Virus record (IMG/VR): IMGVR_UViG_3300005519_000020
Location: 1 to 20,958 of that record
Length of the DNA: 20,958 bases
From: a virus
Reading direction: 5' to 3' (one strand)
Numbering within the stretch: the stretch's first letter is position 1; the number at the start of each line of letters is the position of its first letter. Under the pieces are notes generated by a model. That model had not been told where the DNA came from. It worked only from the letters and a program-made list of their open reading frames with translations, and did no database searches. The position numbers were made by a program, and so were the translations under genes. This document shows, one piece after another, positions 4,499-20,732 of this stretch.

Positions 4499-5731
4499 TT
4501 ACTGAAGCGCCTCCATCACGACTTCGCACCAGACTTGCGCCTGGATAGCATTGATCGCGTTTCCGTAGGCGCGCAGGCGTCCCACTCGGGCGGGAGCCCC
4601 ATGAGCCAGCGGGAATGTGCCGGGTTCAACTGGCCGCCACTTTCCATCCCGGCAGAGGAGCCAATCAGCATCTCGCCAGAAGCCGTTAGTCGGGCCGGGC
4701 CGCGCCAGTTCGAGTCGATCACATCCTGCATCGACCATTCGCATAAGCTGACCGTCTTGCGGCTGCTGTCGTTGTTCCCCGCAGGGTTGTTCCCGTTCTG
4801 CGCCGGAGTGCCCGCCATGGGCGTCGGCCATCCAGCCAACGGAGCGCACCCCGGCAGCCGATCCGTCCCCTGCGCTGGGCCGCCGTTTGGGCCGTCCTGC
4901 TGACATGGCGTCGGCCATCCAGCCAACGGAGCGCACCCCGGCAGCCGATCCGTCCCCTGCGCTGGGCCGCCGTTTGGGCCGTCCTGCTGACATGGCGTCG
5001 GCCACTCCGCCAACTGAGTGAATACCTCCTCGCTCAAAGGCTTGCCCTTGACCATTCGAGCCCTCGACGCCAGGAATTCCGGCGACGCGCTCGCGCTCTT
5101 CCAATCCCGTGCGGCCGGCGTCGGCCACGCGGCAAGCATCGAGAAGTCGTTGAGATTCGATCCGTGGCGGCTCTCGCCCATCGCGCGTTTCGCTTGCCCC
5201 ACCCCGCTGGCGTCCATAGCCTGCGGTGTGGGCCACCCAGTAAAGGCGGTCGCGGATGTGCGGGGCACCGATGCTCGCAGACGGGAACGGGACAGCCCCG
5301 AATCCGTATTCCACGGCTTCCATGTCAGCTTGTACAAGGTCGATCCAAGGATCTGCGTCCTTGCTCGCAACTTGTTCTCCAAGAACGACTGGAGGCCGGC
5401 GCTGCTGGATAAGCCAGTGAAAGGCAGGCCAGAGATGCCGCTCGTCAGCAAACGCAAGTCCTTTGCCTGCCGCGCTGAAAGGTTGGCAAGGACAGGAACC
5501 GGTCCAAACAGGTCGATCGTCGGACCAGCCTGCGCGTCGGAGTGCCAGCGACCAGACGCCGATTCCGGCGAAGAAGTGGCACTGTGTGTAGCCTCGGAGG
5601 TCGTCAGGTCGAACATCCTGAATGTCTCTCTCGTCGACGTCGCCCGGAGCAATGTGGCCCGCCGCAATCAGATTGCGCAGCCACTGGGCGGCGTATGGGT
5701 CGATCTCGTTGTAATAGGCGGCGGCAGACAT
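4499..5731 (-). CDS. C5-cytosine-specific DNA methyltransferase
   Basis: 410 aa from the ATG at 5731 (TGATG overlap with the HTH gene). Motif [18 protein letters not shown] lies at 53-69 and motif [14 protein letters not shown] at 78-89 with catalytic Cys82. Motif VI reads EQV (119-121) where most family members have ENV. Motif VIII is IRDRLYWVA (159-167) and motif X is [11 protein letters not shown] (388-398). The target-recognition region (about 168-350) contains a perfect 29-residue tandem duplication. It probably methylates phage DNA against host restriction; its target sequence cannot be read. A second long ORF overlaps it out of frame. Confidence 0.88.
4516..5616 (-). CDS. Possible overprinted ORF inside the methyltransferase gene (WPTP-repeat protein)
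   Basis: A 366-aa ORF in another frame on the same strand as the methyltransferase, open from ATG 5616 ([11 protein letters not shown]; an in-frame start at 5667 exists). It contains [20 protein letters not shown], five W-P-T-P motifs ([52 protein letters not shown]) and a C-terminal [21 protein letters not shown] recognise this motif set from phage proteins listed as hypothetical or methyltransferase-related. It may be a real overlapping gene, or those entries may be alternative-frame translations of methyltransferases. Both frames look conserved, so it is listed with moderate confidence. Confidence 0.4.
4821..4994. repeat. Perfect 87-bp tandem duplication within the methyltransferase gene
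   Basis: Positions 4821-4907 and 4908-4994 are identical over 87 bases, and a third copy starts at 4995 for about ten bases. The unit is 29 codons, so the methyltransferase frame is kept ([15 protein letters not shown]... twice), as is the overlapping frame ([14 protein letters not shown]... twice). The lack of any mismatch implies a recent duplication or an assembly artefact. Confidence 0.93.
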
Positions 5732-6027
5732 CACTGAAACAGGGAGCCCTGCTTCGCCGGCACCTTGACGCACTGCACGGTACGCAGCGTCACGGAACAC
5801 TTGCGCTCACCAGCCAGCACCAGGCGCCCCGCGGCGATGAGTTCGTTGCGCCGGCCCGAGACGCTGGATTTCTCCATATTCAAGAGAAACGCAATCTCGG
5901 CGATGGTGGCCGTTTCGACGGCTTCGACACATTCGACAATGCGGTCGCACTGCAGCTTGCCGACGTTGCGGCGGGTGCTGGAGTGGTAGGCGTCGATGGA
6001 AGTGTCTTGCACGTTGGTCAGCATCAT
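5731..6027 (-). CDS. Small winged-helix/HTH protein
   Basis: 98 aa from the ATG at 6027, which gives an ATGA overlap with the phosphatase stop and has GGGGGA upstream; ATG 6024 and 6039 are alternatives. The segment ECVEAVETATIAEIAFLLNMEKSSVSGRRNELIAAGRL is a winged-helix DNA-binding motif, with KSSVSGRRNELI as the likely recognition helix, followed by beta strands (SVTLRTVQCVKV). Phages of this type carry similar small wHTH proteins of unknown target. It may be a regulator or a replication accessory; the sequence does not decide. Confidence 0.68.
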   Translation of the reverse strand: MMLTNVQDTSIDAYHSSTRRNVGKLQCDRIVECVEAVETATIAEIAFLLNMEKSSVSGRRNELIAAGRLVLAGERKCSVTLRTVQCVKVPAKQGSLFQ

Positions 6028-7569: not shown

Positions 7570-7595
7570 ACGCCATGTTTATCAACAGGTTGTTT
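7544..7595. promoter_or_regulatory. OR operator cluster (three AAAC-N5-GTTT sites)
   Basis: Three imperfect palindromes share half-sites AAAC and GTTT five bases apart: 7544-7556 (within the 17-base palindrome TTAAACACCACGTTTAA at 7542-7558), 7568-7580, and a weaker one at 7583-7595 (CAAC in place of AAAC). The centres are 24 and 15 bases apart. They lie between the divergent cro and repressor genes and are matched by the cluster at 9041-9110. Confidence 0.85.
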
Positions 7596-7607
7596 ACGTG
7601 TGAGACC

Positions 7608-8414
7608 ATGCCGCGCATGCACGAAACCATGGTTCGCCTCTACGAGGCCGCACGCACACTCAAGGGATTGACGACCCAAGCGGACGTCGCCAGAGCCTTC
7701 AACTTCTCTCAGCAGAGGATCAAAAACTGGGAAGCCAGGGGCATGTCGAAGGGCGGCATGTTGAAGGCCCAAGAGGTTTTTGGTTGCAGCGCGACTTGGC
7801 TGGAGACCGGCAAGCCGCCGATGAACACTGTCAAGCAAAAATCTGATGCAGATCAGATTGAAATAAGACTTAACGAGCACTCAGAACCACCCTCTTACAA
7901 TCCTCAACAATCACCTACAAGAACGCTCACAGGCGTCGCGGTGCGCCCGATTGTTACTTATGAGACCCTGGACGAACTCCCTAAGGAGTCAACGGTTCTC
8001 ATCACGAGGATTGACGTGAAGCTGTCTGCGGGGAATGGGAGAGAGACTTGGCACATCGAGGAAAGGGAACCGCTGCCGTTCCAAGCCGATTACATACGGA
8101 GCCTCGATTCCAAACCGAAAAACTTAGTCGCCGCCAAGGTCAATGGCGACAGCATGGAGCCACGGCTATTCGACAAAGACACGGTGGTCGTCGACACGGC
8201 CGATACGCGGGTGCCAGCTAACGGCGGCGTGTTTGCCTTGGTGTATGCCGGCGAGCTGCTGGTCAAGCGCCTGTTCAGACTGCCTGATGGCGGACTGAAG
8301 GTGGTCAGCGACAACCATGTGCGCTACGAACCCGTCACAGTCGCGCCGGAGCATGTCGACAACGTGAGCATCATCGGCCGGGTCAAGTACCGGTCCGGCA
8401 TGGGCGATTTTTGA
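7608..8414 (+). CDS. S24/LexA-type CI-like prophage repressor
   Basis: 268 aa from ATG 7608. The in-frame ATG at 7575 would add 11 residues but lies inside an operator, so 7608 is preferred; the Shine-Dalgarno is weak for both. The N-terminal HTH is LTTQADVARAFNFSQQRIKNWEARG. The C-terminal S24 peptidase domain has Ala141-Gly142 in KLSAGNG as likely self-cleavage site, Ser182 in NGDSMEP and Lys220 in ELLVKRL as catalytic dyad. RecA-stimulated self-cleavage would make the prophage SOS-inducible. It should bind both operator clusters and keep the lysogenic state. Confidence 0.93.
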   Translation: MPRMHETMVRLYEAARTLKGLTTQADVARAFNFSQQRIKNWEARGMSKGGMLKAQEVFGCSATWLETGKPPMNTVKQKSDADQIEIRLNEHSEPPSYNPQQSPTRTLTGVAVRPIVTYETLDELPKESTVLITRIDVKLSAGNGRETWHIEEREPLPFQADYIRSLDSKPKNLVAAKVNGDSMEPRLFDKDTVVVDTADTRVPANGGVFALVYAGELLVKRLFRLPDGGLKVVSDNHVRYEPVTVAPEHVDNVSIIGRVKYRSGMGDF

Positions 8415-11575: not shown

Positions 11576-12538
11576 ATGCTCCCAGCAAAACGCGAAGTAT
11601 CGGCTTTGCCGGCATTGCAGATGGATGAAGGCGAGCTGATGGCAGTCCTTCGCAATTCCCTCTATCCAGGTGCACGCGATGAGTCGATCAAGCTCGTGCT
11701 CGGCTACTGTCGCGCGGCAGCTCTGGATCCGATGCAAAAGCCGGTGCACATCGTGCCGATGTCGGTTTCCACCGGCCAGAAGGACAAGGACGGCTGGGAC
11801 ATCAAGGAAATGCGCGATGTCGTCATGCCAGGCATCGGCCTCTACCGCACGCAAGCAGCTCGCTCTGGCGAGTATGCAGGTGTCACTGAACCCGATTTCG
11901 GCGATGACGTCACCGAGAAGCTGGGCGACGCGACTGTTACGTACCCGAAGTGGTGCCGCGTCACGGTAAAGCGGCTGCTGAACGGCACCGTTGTGGAGTT
12001 CACTGCCAAAGAATATTGGCGCGAAAACTACGCGACGAAGAGCGCCCGCTCTGTCGAGCCCAACGCTATGTGGAAACGACGCCCCTATGGGCAACTCGCA
12101 AAGTGCGCAGAAGCGCAAGCGTTGCGCAAAGCCTTTCCCGAGTTTGGTGCCCAGCCGACTGCCGACGAAATGGAAGGTGCGATCGAGTTGGAGCAGTCCA
12201 ACGACGATCTTTCGCCTCCTACTGCCGGCGTGCCGATGCCGAAGTCACGCACCATAGCCCAGCAAGGCGGTGATGGCCAAGTCATCGACGTGCAGCCCAA
12301 GTCTGAAACGGACGCTGGCAGCGCCAAAAGCACCAGCACCGCCAAGAGGAAGGCCGACACGAGCGCCAATGACCTCGCATCCGAAGGCGAGCGCGCATGG
12401 ATCCGCCGCAAGTTGGAAGACCTGGGCGTTGAACTGCAAGCGGCCTGCGAGGAAGCCGGCATCAGCAACTTCGATGCGCTGACTTCTGACGGTTTCATTG
12501 CCCTGAAGGACCTCATCAATCGCTTGGAGCGCCAGTAA
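11576..12538 (+). CDS. bet: Bet/RecT-family single-strand annealing protein
   Basis: 320 aa. The annealase core is YCRAAALDPMQKPVHIVPM (44-62), VVMPGIGLYRTQAARSGEYAG (82-102), a KRLLNGTVVEFTAKEYW segment, and AMWKRRPYGQLAKCAEAQALRKAFPEF (164-190), the hallmark C-terminal motif of lambda Bet and RecT. These proteins anneal complementary single strands made by a 5'-3' exonuclease, here the adjacent gene. After about residue 215 follows a low-complexity Ser/Thr linker and a small helical tail. AGGAG lies 7 bases before the ATG. Confidence 0.92.
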   Translation: MLPAKREVSALPALQMDEGELMAVLRNSLYPGARDESIKLVLGYCRAAALDPMQKPVHIVPMSVSTGQKDKDGWDIKEMRDVVMPGIGLYRTQAARSGEYAGVTEPDFGDDVTEKLGDATVTYPKWCRVTVKRLLNGTVVEFTAKEYWRENYATKSARSVEPNAMWKRRPYGQLAKCAEAQALRKAFPEFGAQPTADEMEGAIELEQSNDDLSPPTAGVPMPKSRTIAQQGGDGQVIDVQPKSETDAGSAKSTSTAKRKADTSANDLASEGERAWIRRKLEDLGVELQAACEEAGISNFDALTSDGFIALKDLINRLERQ

Positions 12539-12540
12539 CC

Positions 12541-13119
12541 ATGCTGCTCTTCGAAGAGGCCACCCATACCTACCGTTTTGACGGCGCAGTCGTGCCTAGC
12601 GTGACGCAGATCCTGGCGCCGCTCAACGATCTGTCGTTCGTCGATCCGCAGGTGCTCGAGTACAAGCGCCAGCTCGGCACGGCCGTGCACAAGGCGACCG
12701 AGTTGTACGACCTGGGCGACCTCGACGAAGACAGCCTCGCACCAGTCATCAGGCCATACCTCGATGCTTGGATTCGCTTCCGGCGTGAGAAGCCGTTCGA
12801 GATCCTGGGCATGGAGCAGAAGGTCTACCACCCGCTCCATCGGTACGCCGGCACGTACGACCGAATGATCTCGATGGATGGTCGCCGCGGCCCCCTCGAC
12901 ATCAAGACCGGCGAGACGCTGCCGGGCTACGGCCCCCAGACCGCTGCATACAAAGCGGCATCCGAGGCCGAGACCGGTGAACGCCTGACCGGCCGCTGGA
13001 CGATTCAACTGCGCGATGACGGCACGTATCGCCTGCATACCAAGGCGGACGCAGACGACTGGCCCGTCTTCCTGAGCTGCCTGAACCTTTACCGCTTTCG
13101 CAACAAGCACGCCGCCTAA
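12541..13119 (+). CDS. PD-(D/E)XK exonuclease, partner of the annealase
   Basis: 192 aa. Motifs of the Cas4/RecB/YqaJ-like nuclease fold are in order: GTAVHKATELYD with His50, GMEQKVY with Glu92, GTYDRMI with Asp107, PLDIKTG with Asp120 and Lys122, and PQTAAYKAA with Gln133. Such enzymes resect double-strand ends to give the single strands on which Bet acts. The ATG is two bases after the Bet stop, so the two are made together. It is smaller than lambda Exo (226 aa) and closer to the Cas4-like branch. Confidence 0.88.
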   Translation: MLLFEEATHTYRFDGAVVPSVTQILAPLNDLSFVDPQVLEYKRQLGTAVHKATELYDLGDLDEDSLAPVIRPYLDAWIRFRREKPFEILGMEQKVYHPLHRYAGTYDRMISMDGRRGPLDIKTGETLPGYGPQTAAYKAASEAETGERLTGRWTIQLRDDGTYRLHTKADADDWPVFLSCLNLYRFRNKHAA

Positions 13120-14781: not shown

Positions 14782-15138
14782 ATGCAAATCCAACTTCCCC
14801 CGCTCGCTGAAGGCGAAACCTATCTCTTCGGTCGCGTCGACAAGAACGGTGACATCGAACACACCGTGGTCATCGCTGTGAACAACAGCGCGCTGTCCCG
14901 CGAGAAGCAACGCGAGTGGGCTAAGAGCATTGGCGGCGTGCTGATGAACCGCATCGAAGCCATCGAGATCTACAACAGCCACCGCGACCTCGTTGAGCCC
15001 GATTGGTACTGGACTGACGAAGACGTCGAATGGGATACCGCTTACGCCTGGTACCAGAACTTCAGCTACGGCTACCAGCTCAGCGACCCCAAGTGCGCCG
15101 CGCTGCGCGCGGTCGCTGTCCGCAGATTCAAAAATTGA
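14782..15138 (+). CDS. DGR target protein 1, DUF1566/C-type-lectin-like variable protein
   Basis: 118 aa, no signal peptide. The N-terminal MQIQLPPLAEGETYLFGRVDKNGDIEHTVVI and WAKSIGGVLMNRIEAIEIYN lead into DWYWTDEDVEWDTAYAWYQNF and the C-terminal ALRAVAVRRF, the DUF1566-type C-type-lectin-like fold found in many DGR targets. Residues 87-116 are encoded by VR1. Variable residues relative to the template reading NFNNGNQNNNHKS are S, Y, Y, L, S, D, P and C (eight changes). Such domains present a ligand-binding face. The ligand is unknown. AGGA lies 8 bases before the ATG. Confidence 0.88.
   Translation: MQIQLPPLAEGETYLFGRVDKNGDIEHTVVIAVNNSALSREKQREWAKSIGGVLMNRIEAIEIYNSHRDLVEPDWYWTDEDVEWDTAYAWYQNFSYGYQLSDPKCAALRAVAVRRFKN
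15038..15128 (+). repeat. Variable repeat VR1
   Basis: 91 bases aligned without gaps to TR 16201-16291. The first 20 bases and the last 43 or so are identical; 9 substitutions lie in between, and every one is at a template A (three to G, four to T and two to C, counted codon by codon). It lies at the 3' end of target gene 1 and is followed by CA where TR has GG. Confidence 0.97.
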
Positions 15139-15198
15139 CCCATCTCCTCATTCACTGAGCTGAACAACCCATCCCGTCCAACTCTGCAGGAGCACAGC

Positions 15199-15666
15199 AT
15201 GACCGCAGTCACCCTGGAGCACATCGAAGCGGAGCACGTGCGCATCGGCGAACTTATCAAGCGATTCAAGGAACAGCCGCGCGCCACGGAATACCGTGTC
15301 GATGCAGTCACGATCCCACTCGCGCCCGGCGAACGCCTCGCCGGTCCGATCTACGCCGAAGACGGCACGCTGGATTACTACCTGATCAAGCTGCCCGGCG
15401 ATGGTGGCGACCTCAGCCACTCCGATGCCATCGCGTATGCGGCCGGCCGTGGCGGCAAGGTTCCCAATCGCCGCGAAGGGCGCCTTCTGATGGCGAATCT
15501 AGGCGAGGAGTTCGACAAGGTCGCCTACTGGTTGGAAGACGACTACGAGCCGAACTCCGCTTACGCCTGGTACCAGTACTTCGACGGCGGCTACCAGATC
15601 ACCAACCACGAGAGCGCCGCGCTGCGCGCGGTCGCTGTCCGCAGATTCACCCCTTCCGTAATTTGA
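15199..15666 (+). CDS. DGR target protein 2, DUF1566/C-type-lectin-like variable protein
   Basis: 155 aa. A helical N-terminus (MTAVTLEHIEAEHVRIGELIKRFKEQ) not shared with target 1 precedes a DUF1566-like domain: GRGGKVPNRREGRLLMANL, AYWLEDDYEPNSAYAWYQYF and ALRAVAVRRF. VR2 covers residues 120-149. Seven residues differ from the template reading (Y, D, G, Y, I, T, E). The two targets share little outside the VR-coded end and the surrounding fold, so they are diverged paralogues or separate acquisitions fed by one TR. GGAG precedes the ATG by 6 bases. Confidence 0.9.
   Translation: MTAVTLEHIEAEHVRIGELIKRFKEQPRATEYRVDAVTIPLAPGERLAGPIYAEDGTLDYYLIKLPGDGGDLSHSDAIAYAAGRGGKVPNRREGRLLMANLGEEFDKVAYWLEDDYEPNSAYAWYQYFDGGYQITNHESAALRAVAVRRFTPSVI
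15557..15647 (+). repeat. Variable repeat VR2
   Basis: 91 bases aligned without gaps to TR 16201-16291, with 8 substitutions, all at template A. The same reading phase is used as in VR1. Its 3' flank CA equals that of VR1 and differs from TR (GG), consistent with the VR-side form of the homing-initiation region. Confidence 0.97.
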
Positions 15667-15680
15667 TCATTTGACACGCC

Positions 15681-16058
15681 ATGGCTCTGCACACTGAGCT
15701 CGACGTCTACAAGACCGGCTACGACCTGTTCGGCAAGGTGACCATGATCGTCGCGAACATGGAACGCACTTTCAAGCGCCTGATCGGCGAGGAGATCGTC
15801 CGCGAATCCTCGAAGCTTCTGATCTTGGTCTATCGCGCGAATGTCGCTGAAGACAAGGTGCCGCACCTCGCCAACTTGGTCGAGCGAGTAAAGCTCGTCG
15901 AGCTGTTGATCCGCCTCTCATTCGACATGAAGAAGGTCTCGCCTAAGCAGTACTGGGCGGTCACGAAGTTGACGGAGAGCATCAGCAAACAGGCCACGGC
16001 GTGGAAGAAGTACGCAGCCAAGCGCCCGTTTCATGGAGGTCAAGGCCACCATGACTGA
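15681..16058 (+). CDS. avd: Avd-like accessory variability determinant
   Basis: 125 aa, the normal size for Avd. It is all-helical and basic: LDVYKTGYDLFGKVTMIVANM, then FKRLIGEEIVRESSKLLILVYRAN, LANLVERVKLVELLIRLSFDM and YWAVTKLTESISKQATAWKKYAA, the four helices of the bundle fold. Avd forms a pentamer that binds the reverse transcriptase and the template RNA and is essential for mutagenic cDNA synthesis in the Bordetella phage system. It begins 14 bases after target 2 with little Shine-Dalgarno. Its end overlaps the reverse transcriptase start. Confidence 0.9.
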   Translation: MALHTELDVYKTGYDLFGKVTMIVANMERTFKRLIGEEIVRESSKLLILVYRANVAEDKVPHLANLVERVKLVELLIRLSFDMKKVSPKQYWAVTKLTESISKQATAWKKYAAKRPFHGGQGHHD

Positions 16059-17421
16059 GCGCCTTTTCAATCTGGTCGTGCCGCTGGCTCACAAGGCCAC
16101 CGCCATGCGCGTCACGGATACCGCCGGTTTCGACCGGGAAGCGTCCCGCGCAGTTTCCCATCTGAGCGATCGGACGGGCGACGTAGATAGCACGATTGGT
16201 CCGCTTACGCCTGGTACCAGAACTTCAACAACGGCAACCAGAACAACAACCACAAGAGCGCCGCGCTGCGCGCGGTCGCTGTCCGCAGATTGGAACGAAA
16301 CGGAAGGCTTCACGGGCGCCGAGTTGGTCAGAGCATACCGAGACTGCCGGCGCACGAAACGCAATACAGCAAGCGCGCTCGCCTTCGAAGCCAACCTCGA
16401 GCGCAACCTCTTCAAATTGCACGGCGAACTGGCCAGCGGCTGCTATGTGCCGGGCCCATCGAAGTGCTTTGTCATCGACCGGCCCAAGCATCGCGAAGTC
16501 TGGGCGGCCGCCTTCCGCGATCGAATCGTGCACCACTTGTTGTACAACCGCATTGGTCCGCGCTTCGAACGCACATTCATCGCCGATTCCTGCGCATGCA
16601 TCAAAGGGCGCGGCACGCTATACGCCGCCCAGCGCCTGGAATCGAAAGTGCGCTCGATTACCCAGAACTGGGCACGGCCAGCGCACTACCTGAAGTGCGA
16701 TCTGGCCAACTTCTTCGTCAGCATCGACAAGCGCGTACTCCTCGATCTACTGCTCGCGAAGATCTCCGAGCCATTCTGGCGCGCATTGACCGAGCTCGTG
16801 CTGATGCACGATCCACGGGAAAACTTCGTCTACCTTGGCGACCCTAGGATGATGGACCGCGTGCCGCCGCACAAGCGCTTGATGCAACAGCCGGCGCACC
16901 TCGGGCTGCCTATCGGCAACCTGTCGTCGCAGTTCTTCGCCAACGTCTACCTCAACGAGCTGGACCAGTTCGTGAAGCACGAACTGCGCTGCCGGCATTA
17001 CATCCGCTACGTCGACGACTTCGTGCTTATGCACGAGTCGCCTCAGTGGCTCAACGAGGCGCACGCTGCCGTCGCGGCATTCCTGCCGGCCCGGCTTGGT
17101 GCGCGCCTCAACCCAACGAAGACCATCCTGCAGCCGGTCGCACGCGGCATCGACTTCGTCGGCCAGGTGGTTCGCCCATGGGTGCGGCACACCCGCAAGC
17201 GGACGCTGAATAGCAGCATTCAGCGCGTTCGCGAAATGCCGGCACAGGACATCTATCAAGCCGCCAACAGCTACTTCGGCCTGCTGCGCCAAGCCACTGG
17301 CAGCCACACCGAGCGCGCCAAGCTCGCGAATGCCGCGCGCAAGCGTGGGCATGCCGTCAATCGACAACTCACGAAGGCCTACCGCGCCGCCCTCGATAAG
17401 CAGAAGGAGAAGCAACAATGA
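16051..17421 (+). CDS. DGR reverse transcriptase
   Basis: 456 aa from ATG 16051, which has GGAGGT 10 bases upstream; ATG 16033 is an alternative. The polymerase core includes YLKCDLANFFVSID with Asp217, GLPIGNLSSQFFANVYLNELD (285-305; the SQ in motif 4 is typical of DGR enzymes, where group II introns have QG), and RYVDDFVLM with Asp322-Asp323. The thumb is basic. There is no maturase or endonuclease domain. The first 80 or so residues, including a Thr/Arg-rich stretch translated from TR, precede the conserved core and are not typical. No in-frame ATG or GTG was found between TR and the core; TTG 16324 is the only candidate. Confidence 0.95.
   Translation: MTERLFNLVVPLAHKATAMRVTDTAGFDREASRAVSHLSDRTGDVDSTIGPLTPGTRTSTTATRTTTTRAPRCARSLSADWNETEGFTGAELVRAYRDCRRTKRNTASALAFEANLERNLFKLHGELASGCYVPGPSKCFVIDRPKHREVWAAAFRDRIVHHLLYNRIGPRFERTFIADSCACIKGRGTLYAAQRLESKVRSITQNWARPAHYLKCDLANFFVSIDKRVLLDLLLAKISEPFWRALTELVLMHDPRENFVYLGDPRMMDRVPPHKRLMQQPAHLGLPIGNLSSQFFANVYLNELDQFVKHELRCRHYIRYVDDFVLMHESPQWLNEAHAAVAAFLPARLGARLNPTKTILQPVARGIDFVGQVVRPWVRHTRKRTLNSSIQRVREMPAQDIYQAANSYFGLLRQATGSHTERAKLANAARKRGHAVNRQLTKAYRAALDKQKEKQQ
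16201..16291 (+). repeat. Template repeat TR
   Basis: 91 bases with AAC codons in the frame of the targets (reading NFNNGNQNNNHKS), the design that gives maximum diversity when A is randomised. It is identical to both variable repeats at every non-A position. It contains the GC-rich palindrome CCGCGC-TGC-GCGCGG at 16261-16275, present in both VRs too. It is flanked by GG at its 3' side. It lies inside the reverse transcriptase ORF. Confidence 0.97.
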
Positions 17422-19479: not shown

Positions 19480-19689
19480 ATGCCGATACTGACGAATGAA
19501 GACTTGAAAGCCCTCACTGGCGGCCTTGTACAAGGGGCGGCCCAGTGTCGGTGGATCACCCGCGAGCTAGGCTTCAAGCCGCCCATGAAGATCGACGGCC
19601 ACCCGTCTATCACTTGGGAGCAGGTGAATCGCGGTCGCACATCTGGCGAGAAGCCGCGCACCGAGCCCCGGTGGAGTGTCGCAGCGTGA
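19480..19689 (+). CDS. DUF4224-like protein, excisionase position
   Basis: 69 aa. ILTNEDLKALTGGLVQGAAQCRWITRELGFKPPMKIDGHPSITWEQV fits the DUF4224 pattern (LT..EL..LTG......Q...L...G......DG.P...). The family is typically encoded directly before tyrosine integrases and is suspected to act as a recombination directionality factor. GGGAG lies 6 bases before ATG 19480. Its stop overlaps the integrase GTG. Confidence 0.78.
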   Translation: MPILTNEDLKALTGGLVQGAAQCRWITRELGFKPPMKIDGHPSITWEQVNRGRTSGEKPRTEPRWSVAA

Positions 19690-20732
19690 ACCGGCCACGT
19701 ACCGTCAAGCAGGCAAAAGGCCTGCTGGATCGCATGGAAGCGCGCCCGCGAAAAGACGGGCTCGTGACATATCGCTACCGGCCCGTCAATGGCAAGCCGA
19801 TCAACCTGGGAACTGACCGCCTGAAAGCAATTCAGCAGGTACTGGATATGCTTGGCCACGGCGACAACATCGGCACCATTGAGCGCTTGTGGGAGCAGTA
19901 CCAAGAGACGCCTGAGTGGAAGGCGCTCGCCAAAGGCACGCGCGACGACTACACGACATGCAGCAAGCCTTTGCTGGCAACGTTCGGGGAAGTCCGGGCC
20001 AGCGACATCAAGGCGCCCCACATTGCGCGATACCTGCGTGTGGAGCGAAAGAATGCCCCCATCCGGGCCAACCGGGAGGCCGCCCTACTCTCGAACCTCA
20101 TCAATCTGGCGATCGAGCGCGGGGAGGCAGAGGTCAACCCATGCCGCCAAGTACGACGCAATCCTGAGCAGCCCCGTACGCATGCCGTCGCTACGGAGAC
20201 GATAGCGGCGTTCGTTGGCTGGCTGATGGGGCAGACACCACAGCGCAAGATCATCGCGCTGGCGGCGGAATACGCTGCACTGGCGGGCAGCCGGAAGGCC
20301 GAGTTCTTGGACATCGTGCGCCCGCAGGTCGATACCACTGCCGGCGTCATTCGAACGAAACGCGCCAAGCAGCGCGGTGGCAAGCGCGACCAGGTCATCG
20401 AGGAAGTTGCTATCACCCCTCGCTTGGCCGATCTGTTGGCTCGCATTGATGCCGTGCACAAAGAGCAGGAGCGGGATTGCTTGTACCTGTTCCCGAACCG
20501 GCACGGCAACCACTACACCGCATCTGGCTTCAAAGCGATGTGGGGCAAACTGATGAATAAGGCGCTGGAGGGAAAGGTGATCGCCGAACGGTTCACCTTC
20601 CACGATCTGCGTGCCTACTACGCGACAACGCACAAGGCGGAGCGAGGAAACCTGCCAGACCTGCACGCCAATCCGGCCATCACGGCGCGTGTCTACGACC
20701 GCAGCAAGGTGGTCAAGCGCAAGGCGCTCTGA
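19686..20732 (+). CDS. int: Tyrosine-family phage integrase
   Basis: 348 aa from GTG 19686 (GTGA overlap with the DUF4224 stop); longer frames run into the preceding gene. The N-terminal arm-binding strand set is DGLVTYRYRPVNGKPINLG, the core-binding helices include TRDDYTTCSKPLLATFGEVRASDIKAPHIARYL, and the catalytic residues are Arg203 (AGSRKAEF), Lys225 (RTKRAK), His306 and Arg309 (FHDLRA), His327 and Tyr337 (VYDRS). It catalyses integration and excision, here at the adjacent tRNA-His. The Cterminal KVVKRKAL ends soon after the tyrosine, normal for the group. Confidence 0.95.
   Translation: MNRPRTVKQAKGLLDRMEARPRKDGLVTYRYRPVNGKPINLGTDRLKAIQQVLDMLGHGDNIGTIERLWEQYQETPEWKALAKGTRDDYTTCSKPLLATFGEVRASDIKAPHIARYLRVERKNAPIRANREAALLSNLINLAIERGEAEVNPCRQVRRNPEQPRTHAVATETIAAFVGWLMGQTPQRKIIALAAEYAALAGSRKAEFLDIVRPQVDTTAGVIRTKRAKQRGGKRDQVIEEVAITPRLADLLARIDAVHKEQERDCLYLFPNRHGNHYTASGFKAMWGKLMNKALEGKVIAERFTFHDLRAYYATTHKAERGNLPDLHANPAITARVYDRSKVVKRKAL

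Follow-up and report, generated by a model that had tools for sequence, protein, structure and literature searches.

The locus examined here raises the question of how a diversity-generating retroelement (DGR) starts mutagenic cDNA synthesis when its template repeat (TR) lies directly against the reverse transcriptase (RT) gene. Only in one system, that of phage BPP-1, has the DGR mechanism been worked out in detail; there, a spacer 3' of TR recruits the RT-Avd complex and supplies the primer. Priming is therefore an open question in a large DGR branch that lacks a spacer of the BPP-1 type. A member of this branch occupies positions 14782 to 17421 of IMG/VR record IMGVR_UViG_3300005519_000020, a linear record of 20,958 bases (60% G+C), the whole of which is referred to below as the window. 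We put at roughly 75% the probability that this is an intact DGR, working by adenine-mutagenic retrohoming, with a distinct "5'-spacer" template RNA in which the Rfam RNA named RT-15 is the scaffold and TR a loop closed by a long-range helix between two strands, a1 and a2. The element forms a single plus-strand block in which two target genes, each with a variable repeat (VR), are followed by avd, TR and the RT gene:

14782..15138, plus strand: target gene T1, for a minimal lectin-like protein of 118 aa with VR1 at the C-terminus
15040..15128, plus strand: VR1, 9/9 mismatches to TR at TR adenines
15199..15666, plus strand: target gene T2, for a 155-aa protein of predicted C-type-lectin fold with VR2 at the C-terminus
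15559..15647, plus strand: VR2, 8/8 mismatches to TR at TR adenines
15681..16058, plus strand: avd, accessory variability determinant, 125 aa (PHROG 3206, "Avd protein of DGR", 9.4e-21)
16020..16202, plus strand: RT-15 RNA (RF03018), putative structured 5' spacer of the template RNA (168.6 bits against a gathering score of 82, full model 1-192)
16203..16291, plus strand: TR, 89 nt with 24 adenines, the proposed loop of the template RNA
16294..17421, plus strand: conserved part of the DGR reverse transcriptase (frame open from 15973; PHROG 1423, 1.4e-113)

The original prediction had described a complete DGR, with two targets carrying C-terminal VRs, an Avd, a TR and a DGR-type RT, and every one of these parts was located about where it had been placed, including the RT motifs IGNLSSQ (at 16912) and YVDD (at 17008). 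The adenine-directed difference between TR and the VRs that it had proposed was borne out by alignment: all mismatches fall at TR adenines (hypergeometric 2e-6 for VR1 and 1e-5 for VR2), the two extra mismatches counted in the alignment, at 16292-16293, falling outside the TR repeat. Avd also has sub-threshold matches to Pfam bAvd (2.8e-8) and to DivGenRetAVD (4.5e-9, below the NCBI cut-off). The closest relative of the RT in the PDB is the Bordetella phage bRT (8ub7, 7e-38); the next chains, at 6e-10 or weaker, include group II and retron-type RTs. The Retron St85 model scored the window RT at 43.9 bits against a cut-off of 235, and in an RT tree this protein groups among DGR RTs, as had been predicted. 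An earlier tree with DRT2 and retron outgroups was discarded, very long branches having landed inside the clade.

The original prediction assumed a standard cassette and overlooked the departure from it in the layout of the template RNA. In BPP-1, TR directly follows avd, and between TR and brt comes a gap of 144 nt, where Rfam places the Phage_DGR RNA. The window shows the opposite arrangement: its 144 nt lie between avd and TR and are filled by RT-15, whereas TR abuts the RT core with no structured spacer of the BPP-1 type between them. Nine other DGRs share the BPP-1 layout. Every clade locus searched has RT-15 immediately ahead of TR; no match to it came from the phages with a 3' spacer. 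It scored above threshold in 30 of 400 Pseudomonas genomes, and all 35 RT-15 loci fetched from bacterial genomes were accompanied by an RT of this clade. We infer from these data that RT-15 is the 5' scaffold of the DGR template. In a Rubrivivax metagenome-assembled genome (L059:4740-7181), TR and RT are set apart by an open reading frame (ORF) that apparently encodes a DNA methylase, yet RT-15, TR and the helix described below are all retained; the RT of this locus has its own ATG close to the RT conserved core.

A standard DGR might still underlie this arrangement if the start of the RT coding sequence concealed the usual 3' spacer, with RT-15 as an additional element. Such a spacer could be expected, since the one between TR and brt in BPP-1 recruits the RT and holds the primer (PMC12875486). 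We nevertheless find this improbable: the Rfam Phage_DGR model has no match in the window, and the L059 element keeps RT-15, TR and helix in spite of the intervening methylase-like ORF. The candidate region itself was rejected when the RT start showed no excess of conservation at synonymous sites.

The Rfam model of RT-15 contains a conserved unpaired segment, AAUCUGG, which is complementary to the 3' end of TR and the bases just beyond. The corresponding elements of the window are:

16065..16074, plus strand: helix strand a1 (UUUCAAUCUG), unpaired in the Rfam model and covarying with a2
16286..16295, plus strand: helix strand a2 (CAGAUUGGAA), covering the last bases of TR and the first ones after it, covarying with a1
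16075, plus strand: G beside a1, where that strand meets the RT-15 closing helix; proposed as the priming site by analogy with retron and BPP-1 priming

Among 27 distinct sequences, a1/a2 pairing was found in 88.1% of cells, as opposed to at most 42% when the strands were slid against each other. Five pairs have changed on both sides, and one pair occurs as CG, GC, AU, UG and UA without ever being broken. When RNAalifold was applied to the whole RNA of 22 members, it returned the same helix unprompted and made it continuous with the RT-15 closing helix, the two meeting where G16075 pairs with U16196. The loop between the helices spans 16197-16285 in the window, so that both of its ends fall within about 6 nt of the ends of TR. 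The extraction of a1 had required the motif TCTGG, which left the first four positions on the a1 side hardly variable; the evidence for the helix thus rests on positions 5-9. In an independent Pseudomonas set (18 distinct sequences), where a1 was extracted by a rule that makes no use of pairing, the pairing is kept (0/5000 permutations for positions 4-7). It is also kept in L059, where GGATCTG pairs with CAGATCC although another ORF separates TR from RT.

The same data bear on the possibility that RT-15 is a regulatory RNA, controlling for example translation or transcription of the RT gene, and has no part in priming, the helix serving to sequester the RT start. RT-15 does overlap the end of avd and precede the RT gene, and the RT frame (15973-17421) is open through both RT-15 and TR. 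Against this reading, the helix ends match the ends of TR within about 6 nt, and the helix is retained in L059, where another gene comes between TR and RT; many DGRs with a 3' spacer could form a similar pairing between spacer and TR 3' end, and the place of the RT start is not constant in the clade. We therefore hold this explanation to be quite unlikely. The RT start varies in position, and relatives could start before, in or after TR. The RT ORF listed for the window (from 16033) crosses TR in a frame different from that of the RT, and in the window RT frame TTG 16324 is the one ATG, GTG or TTG codon between TR and the RT core. A start at ATG 16051, with GGAGGT upstream, was considered and rejected: GGAGGT is the variable stem of the first RT-15 hairpin, and as this stem changes in relatives it does not make a dependable ribosome site.

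Several observations weigh against a template RNA scaffolded by RT-15 and closed by a1/a2. The folding energy of the window RNA is not beyond that of shuffled sequences (z -0.26), the minimum free energy structure lacks the helix in 8 of 26 independent RNAs, and parts of the clade have mismatches at helix positions 4-6. A DNA hairpin after VR is reported to be conserved in phage DGRs (PMC3240598); directly 3' of VR1 and VR2 in the window, no clear hairpin of the kind expected at a BPP-1-type target site was found, only weak folds of -1.5 and -4.5 kcal/mol. To these must be added the choice of the priming residue, G16075, which is suggested by analogy.

A second group of DGRs provides a comparison for the 5'-spacer arrangement. 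Bacteroides phage F2 and its relatives also have a spacer before TR, in this case with no Rfam match at the gathering threshold. Their helix sequences diverge while pairing is kept (CAGAT/ATCTG, ACGGAAA/TTTCCGT, GGGAAA/TTTCCC), and duplex energy is lower with each strand's own partner than with swapped partners, 19 of 20,000 permutations reaching values as low. In an RT tree of 44 rows, rooted at the midpoint, a single branch (support 100/99) separates the 5'-spacer rows, made up of the RT-15 clade, the F2 group and locus L062, from 15 rows with a 3' spacer. L062 had been labelled as a 3'-spacer system and was relabelled after the first tree, on the basis of a 126-nt gap between avd and TR and a CTCGAA/TTCGAG match; the labels of the other 43 rows were left unchanged. 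In some of the 3'-spacer systems, a spacer strand near position 50 can pair with the TR 3' end, as judged from complementarity rather than covariation: AGGUGGU/AUCACCU in BPP-1, UGAUAAG/CUUAUCA in BalMu-1 and AAGGCAA/UUGCCUU in Lagaffe. It seems, then, that DGRs rely on one pairing principle whether the spacer precedes or follows TR. The priming adenine of BPP-1 is A56, and the BPP-1 sequence has an A at that position, just 3' of the pairing strand. In Bacillus phage BalMu-1 the 3' spacer of the DGR (L072:4786-4929) is RT-14, another Rfam RNA that is named only by its neighbour.

In BPP-1, it is an adenine inside the 3' spacer that primes the cDNA (PMC12875486). In retrons, the stem formed by the 5' end of msr and the 3' end of msd contains the priming G or ends immediately before it (PMC6868368). 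A G follows a1 in the sequences examined, though not within an AGC, and by analogy with priming in retrons and BPP-1, self-priming at or next to G16075 is proposed. The events might then run as follows. RT-15 would fold into a scaffold ahead of TR, and a1 would pair with a2 in continuity with the RT-15 closing helix, leaving TR as a loop, some 90 nt long, whose two ends come together at one junction. RT and Avd would bind the scaffold, and cDNA would start at the a1/a2 end, self-primed from RT-15. TR would be copied from its 3' end towards its 5' end with errors opposite adenines, synthesis would presumably stop at RT-15, and the cDNA would replace VR1 or VR2, rewriting the ligand-binding faces at the C-termini of two small proteins of C-type-lectin type. 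A broader proposal is that DGRs fall into two RNA classes, parted by the single split in the RT tree, and that the class of this element starts mutagenic cDNA in the manner of retrons, from a residue in structured RNA upstream of the template and beside a closing stem, one continuous helix setting both template ends. We see the odds on this proposal as even.

Evidence that such elements operate comes from relatives. Loci L033 and L045 are identical in RT, TR and the 300-nt target flanks, yet 14/30 TR-adenine positions differ in one VR and 13/30 in the other, as against 0/74 of the remaining positions. The same adenine-confined pattern was seen in the pairs L029/L049, L028/L049, L039/L042 and L026/L027. 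Near-identical relatives thus differ at the TR-adenine positions of both VRs, which indicates that both targets are diversified in nature. The original prediction had named a lack of VR variation among close relatives as a ground for rejection; the variation seen is large and almost confined to TR-adenine positions. Judged from these comparisons, the DGR family is active in nature; the window copy itself has no relative near enough to be compared in this way, its closest (L002) having 86% RT identity. The claim that the element is intact and able to rewrite two proteins therefore holds for the completeness of its frames, while the evidence of activity belongs to its relatives.

Some of these relatives are broken. 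L003 and L004 (upstream of 5001), with an RT that shares 87% identity with the window RT, are cassettes in which no avd was found and RT-15 lacks its 5' part. In L038:4884-4986, TR has been overwritten by a mutated copy: compared with a close relative's TR, it differs at 21 of 103 positions, of which 18 are adenines, and apart from one base it matches the element's own VR2, so that the template has lost many adenines. Decay of this sort makes it conceivable that the window copy, though complete in sequence, is likewise no longer active. We consider this unlikely, given that all frames and the YVDD motif are intact and the TR adenines are retained; moreover, adenines are the sole positions at which VR1 and VR2 depart from TR, and these repeats have hence accumulated no other change.

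The AlphaFold model of T2 (pLDDT 87) has the C-terminal domain of Lcl and C-type lectins as its top Foldseek neighbours (TMq 0.55, E 1.2e-3). The E-values are modest, 1.2e-3 being the best, but nearly all leading matches have the C-type lectin fold, and T2 is accordingly modelled as carrying VR2 at the C-terminus of a domain of this fold. T1 matches Pfam Lcl_C weakly (0.0066, below the cut-off) and is assigned a lectin fold solely through its alignment with T2. A search of the target family with T2 alone as query returned 16 loci, 13 of which have an RT of this clade nearby; the remaining three are distant partial matches. In several relatives (L019:1902-2004, L021:502-563, L011/L012/L013 and L027:1286-1387), a third VR lies upstream of the other two, at a distance of up to 4.5 kb from the RT, and one template may therefore serve three targets.

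The genes around the block bear on what the targets do:

7575..8414, plus strand: CI-like repressor with S24 peptidase domain
11576..12538, plus strand: RecT single-strand annealing protein (PF03837, 4.4e-22)
12541..13119, plus strand: phage exonuclease (PHROG 298, 6.6e-30)
19545..20732, plus strand: tyrosine integrase (PF00589, 5.9e-9)

The first three flank the DGR on one side and the integrase on the other. A lambda-P-like gene, a helix-turn-helix gene of replication type and a C5 methylase gene lie on the opposite strand, and no structural genes were recognised on the 20,958-bp contig. Of the lambda-like prophage originally proposed, the lambda-like temperate character stands; the contig, being linear and holding early genes only, does not distinguish a prophage from a free phage, and "prophage" is here to be read as a temperate lambdoid fragment. 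Among annotated phages, Magia, QDWS, Cruim01 and Haboob carry the DGR at the corresponding place between repressor and integrase, whereas ACA1, ARM81mr, Vibrio 1F273_PE002, Lagaffe and BPP-1, all with a 3' spacer, have theirs among tail genes. On account of this difference in location, the targets are most likely non-structural early or lysogeny proteins. That they are instead virion proteins widening the host range, as in BPP-1, would agree with the annotation of most viral targets of several DGR clades as tail proteins (PMC8144416) and with the change of host range suggested for Magia (PMC7883833). We regard it as rather doubtful, however, for proteins of 118-155 aa with no tail-like part, encoded between repressor and integrase here and in the four annotated phages. 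Two incidental points may be added. The C5 DNA methylase gene (minus strand, 4499-5800) has an internal duplication of about 29 residues, and most of it is overlapped in another frame by a 383-aa ORF (minus strand, 4516-5667) with no Pfam match, possibly an overlapping gene. The records of Shewanella phage vB_Sb_QDWS and "Hujiaoplasma phage zrk29-1" (OK094664 and OP650936) have equal length (both 47,902) and identical match statistics; they are probably one phage, which makes one of the host labels doubtful.

If the two-class, retron-like proposal is correct, an orphan Rfam RNA gains a function and the mechanisms of DGRs and retrons become linked. The RT-15 layout offers a testable answer to the priming question and predicts where the cDNA should begin and end; it gives an orphan RNA family a role and would bear on the design of template RNAs for targeted mutagenesis. 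It also draws attention to phage DGRs whose targets are not tail fibres but small proteins encoded in the early region. No paper describing RT-15, RF03018 or a 5' DGR spacer was found in the literature searched, outside which such work may exist; as far as that literature shows, the 5'-spacer, retron-like template layout is undescribed.

The DGR itself belongs to a branch already represented by a published system, that of Burkholderia cenocepacia phage Magia (MT701587; PMC7883833), with RT 75%, Avd 49% and T2 59% identical. The two share gene order, RT-15 before TR and an early-region location; Magia is a different phage, and the published note, which gives its genes 47 and 57 as the targets, contains no discussion of RNA layout. 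BPP-1 shares the order avd-TR-RT, adenine-directed TR/VR change, a C-terminal VR, an Avd, a related RT and a TR 3' end able to pair with the spacer; it differs in having the Phage_DGR spacer 3' of TR, a TR that abuts avd and a tail protein as target. Bacteroides uniformis phages F2 and F4 and their relatives have in common with the window a 5' spacer, a TR close to RT, a covarying a1/a2 helix and a place on the same side of the RT tree, but their spacer is the one without an Rfam match and their target adjoins genes annotated as capsid-like. In Rfam, the counterpart is RT-15 itself, matched over its full length and named there only by its neighbour. The window element differs from retron msr-msd RNAs (for example Retron-Eco1) in its DGR RT, in a template that is a TR with VR copies, in the presence of Avd, and in having neither an msd hairpin nor an AGC priming motif. 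What it shares with them is the succession of closing strand, structured RNA, template, closing strand and RT (a1-msr-msd-a2-RT in retrons), and a closing stem that ends next to a G (PMC6868368), the a1/a2 helix being the feature that resembles the retron closing stem.

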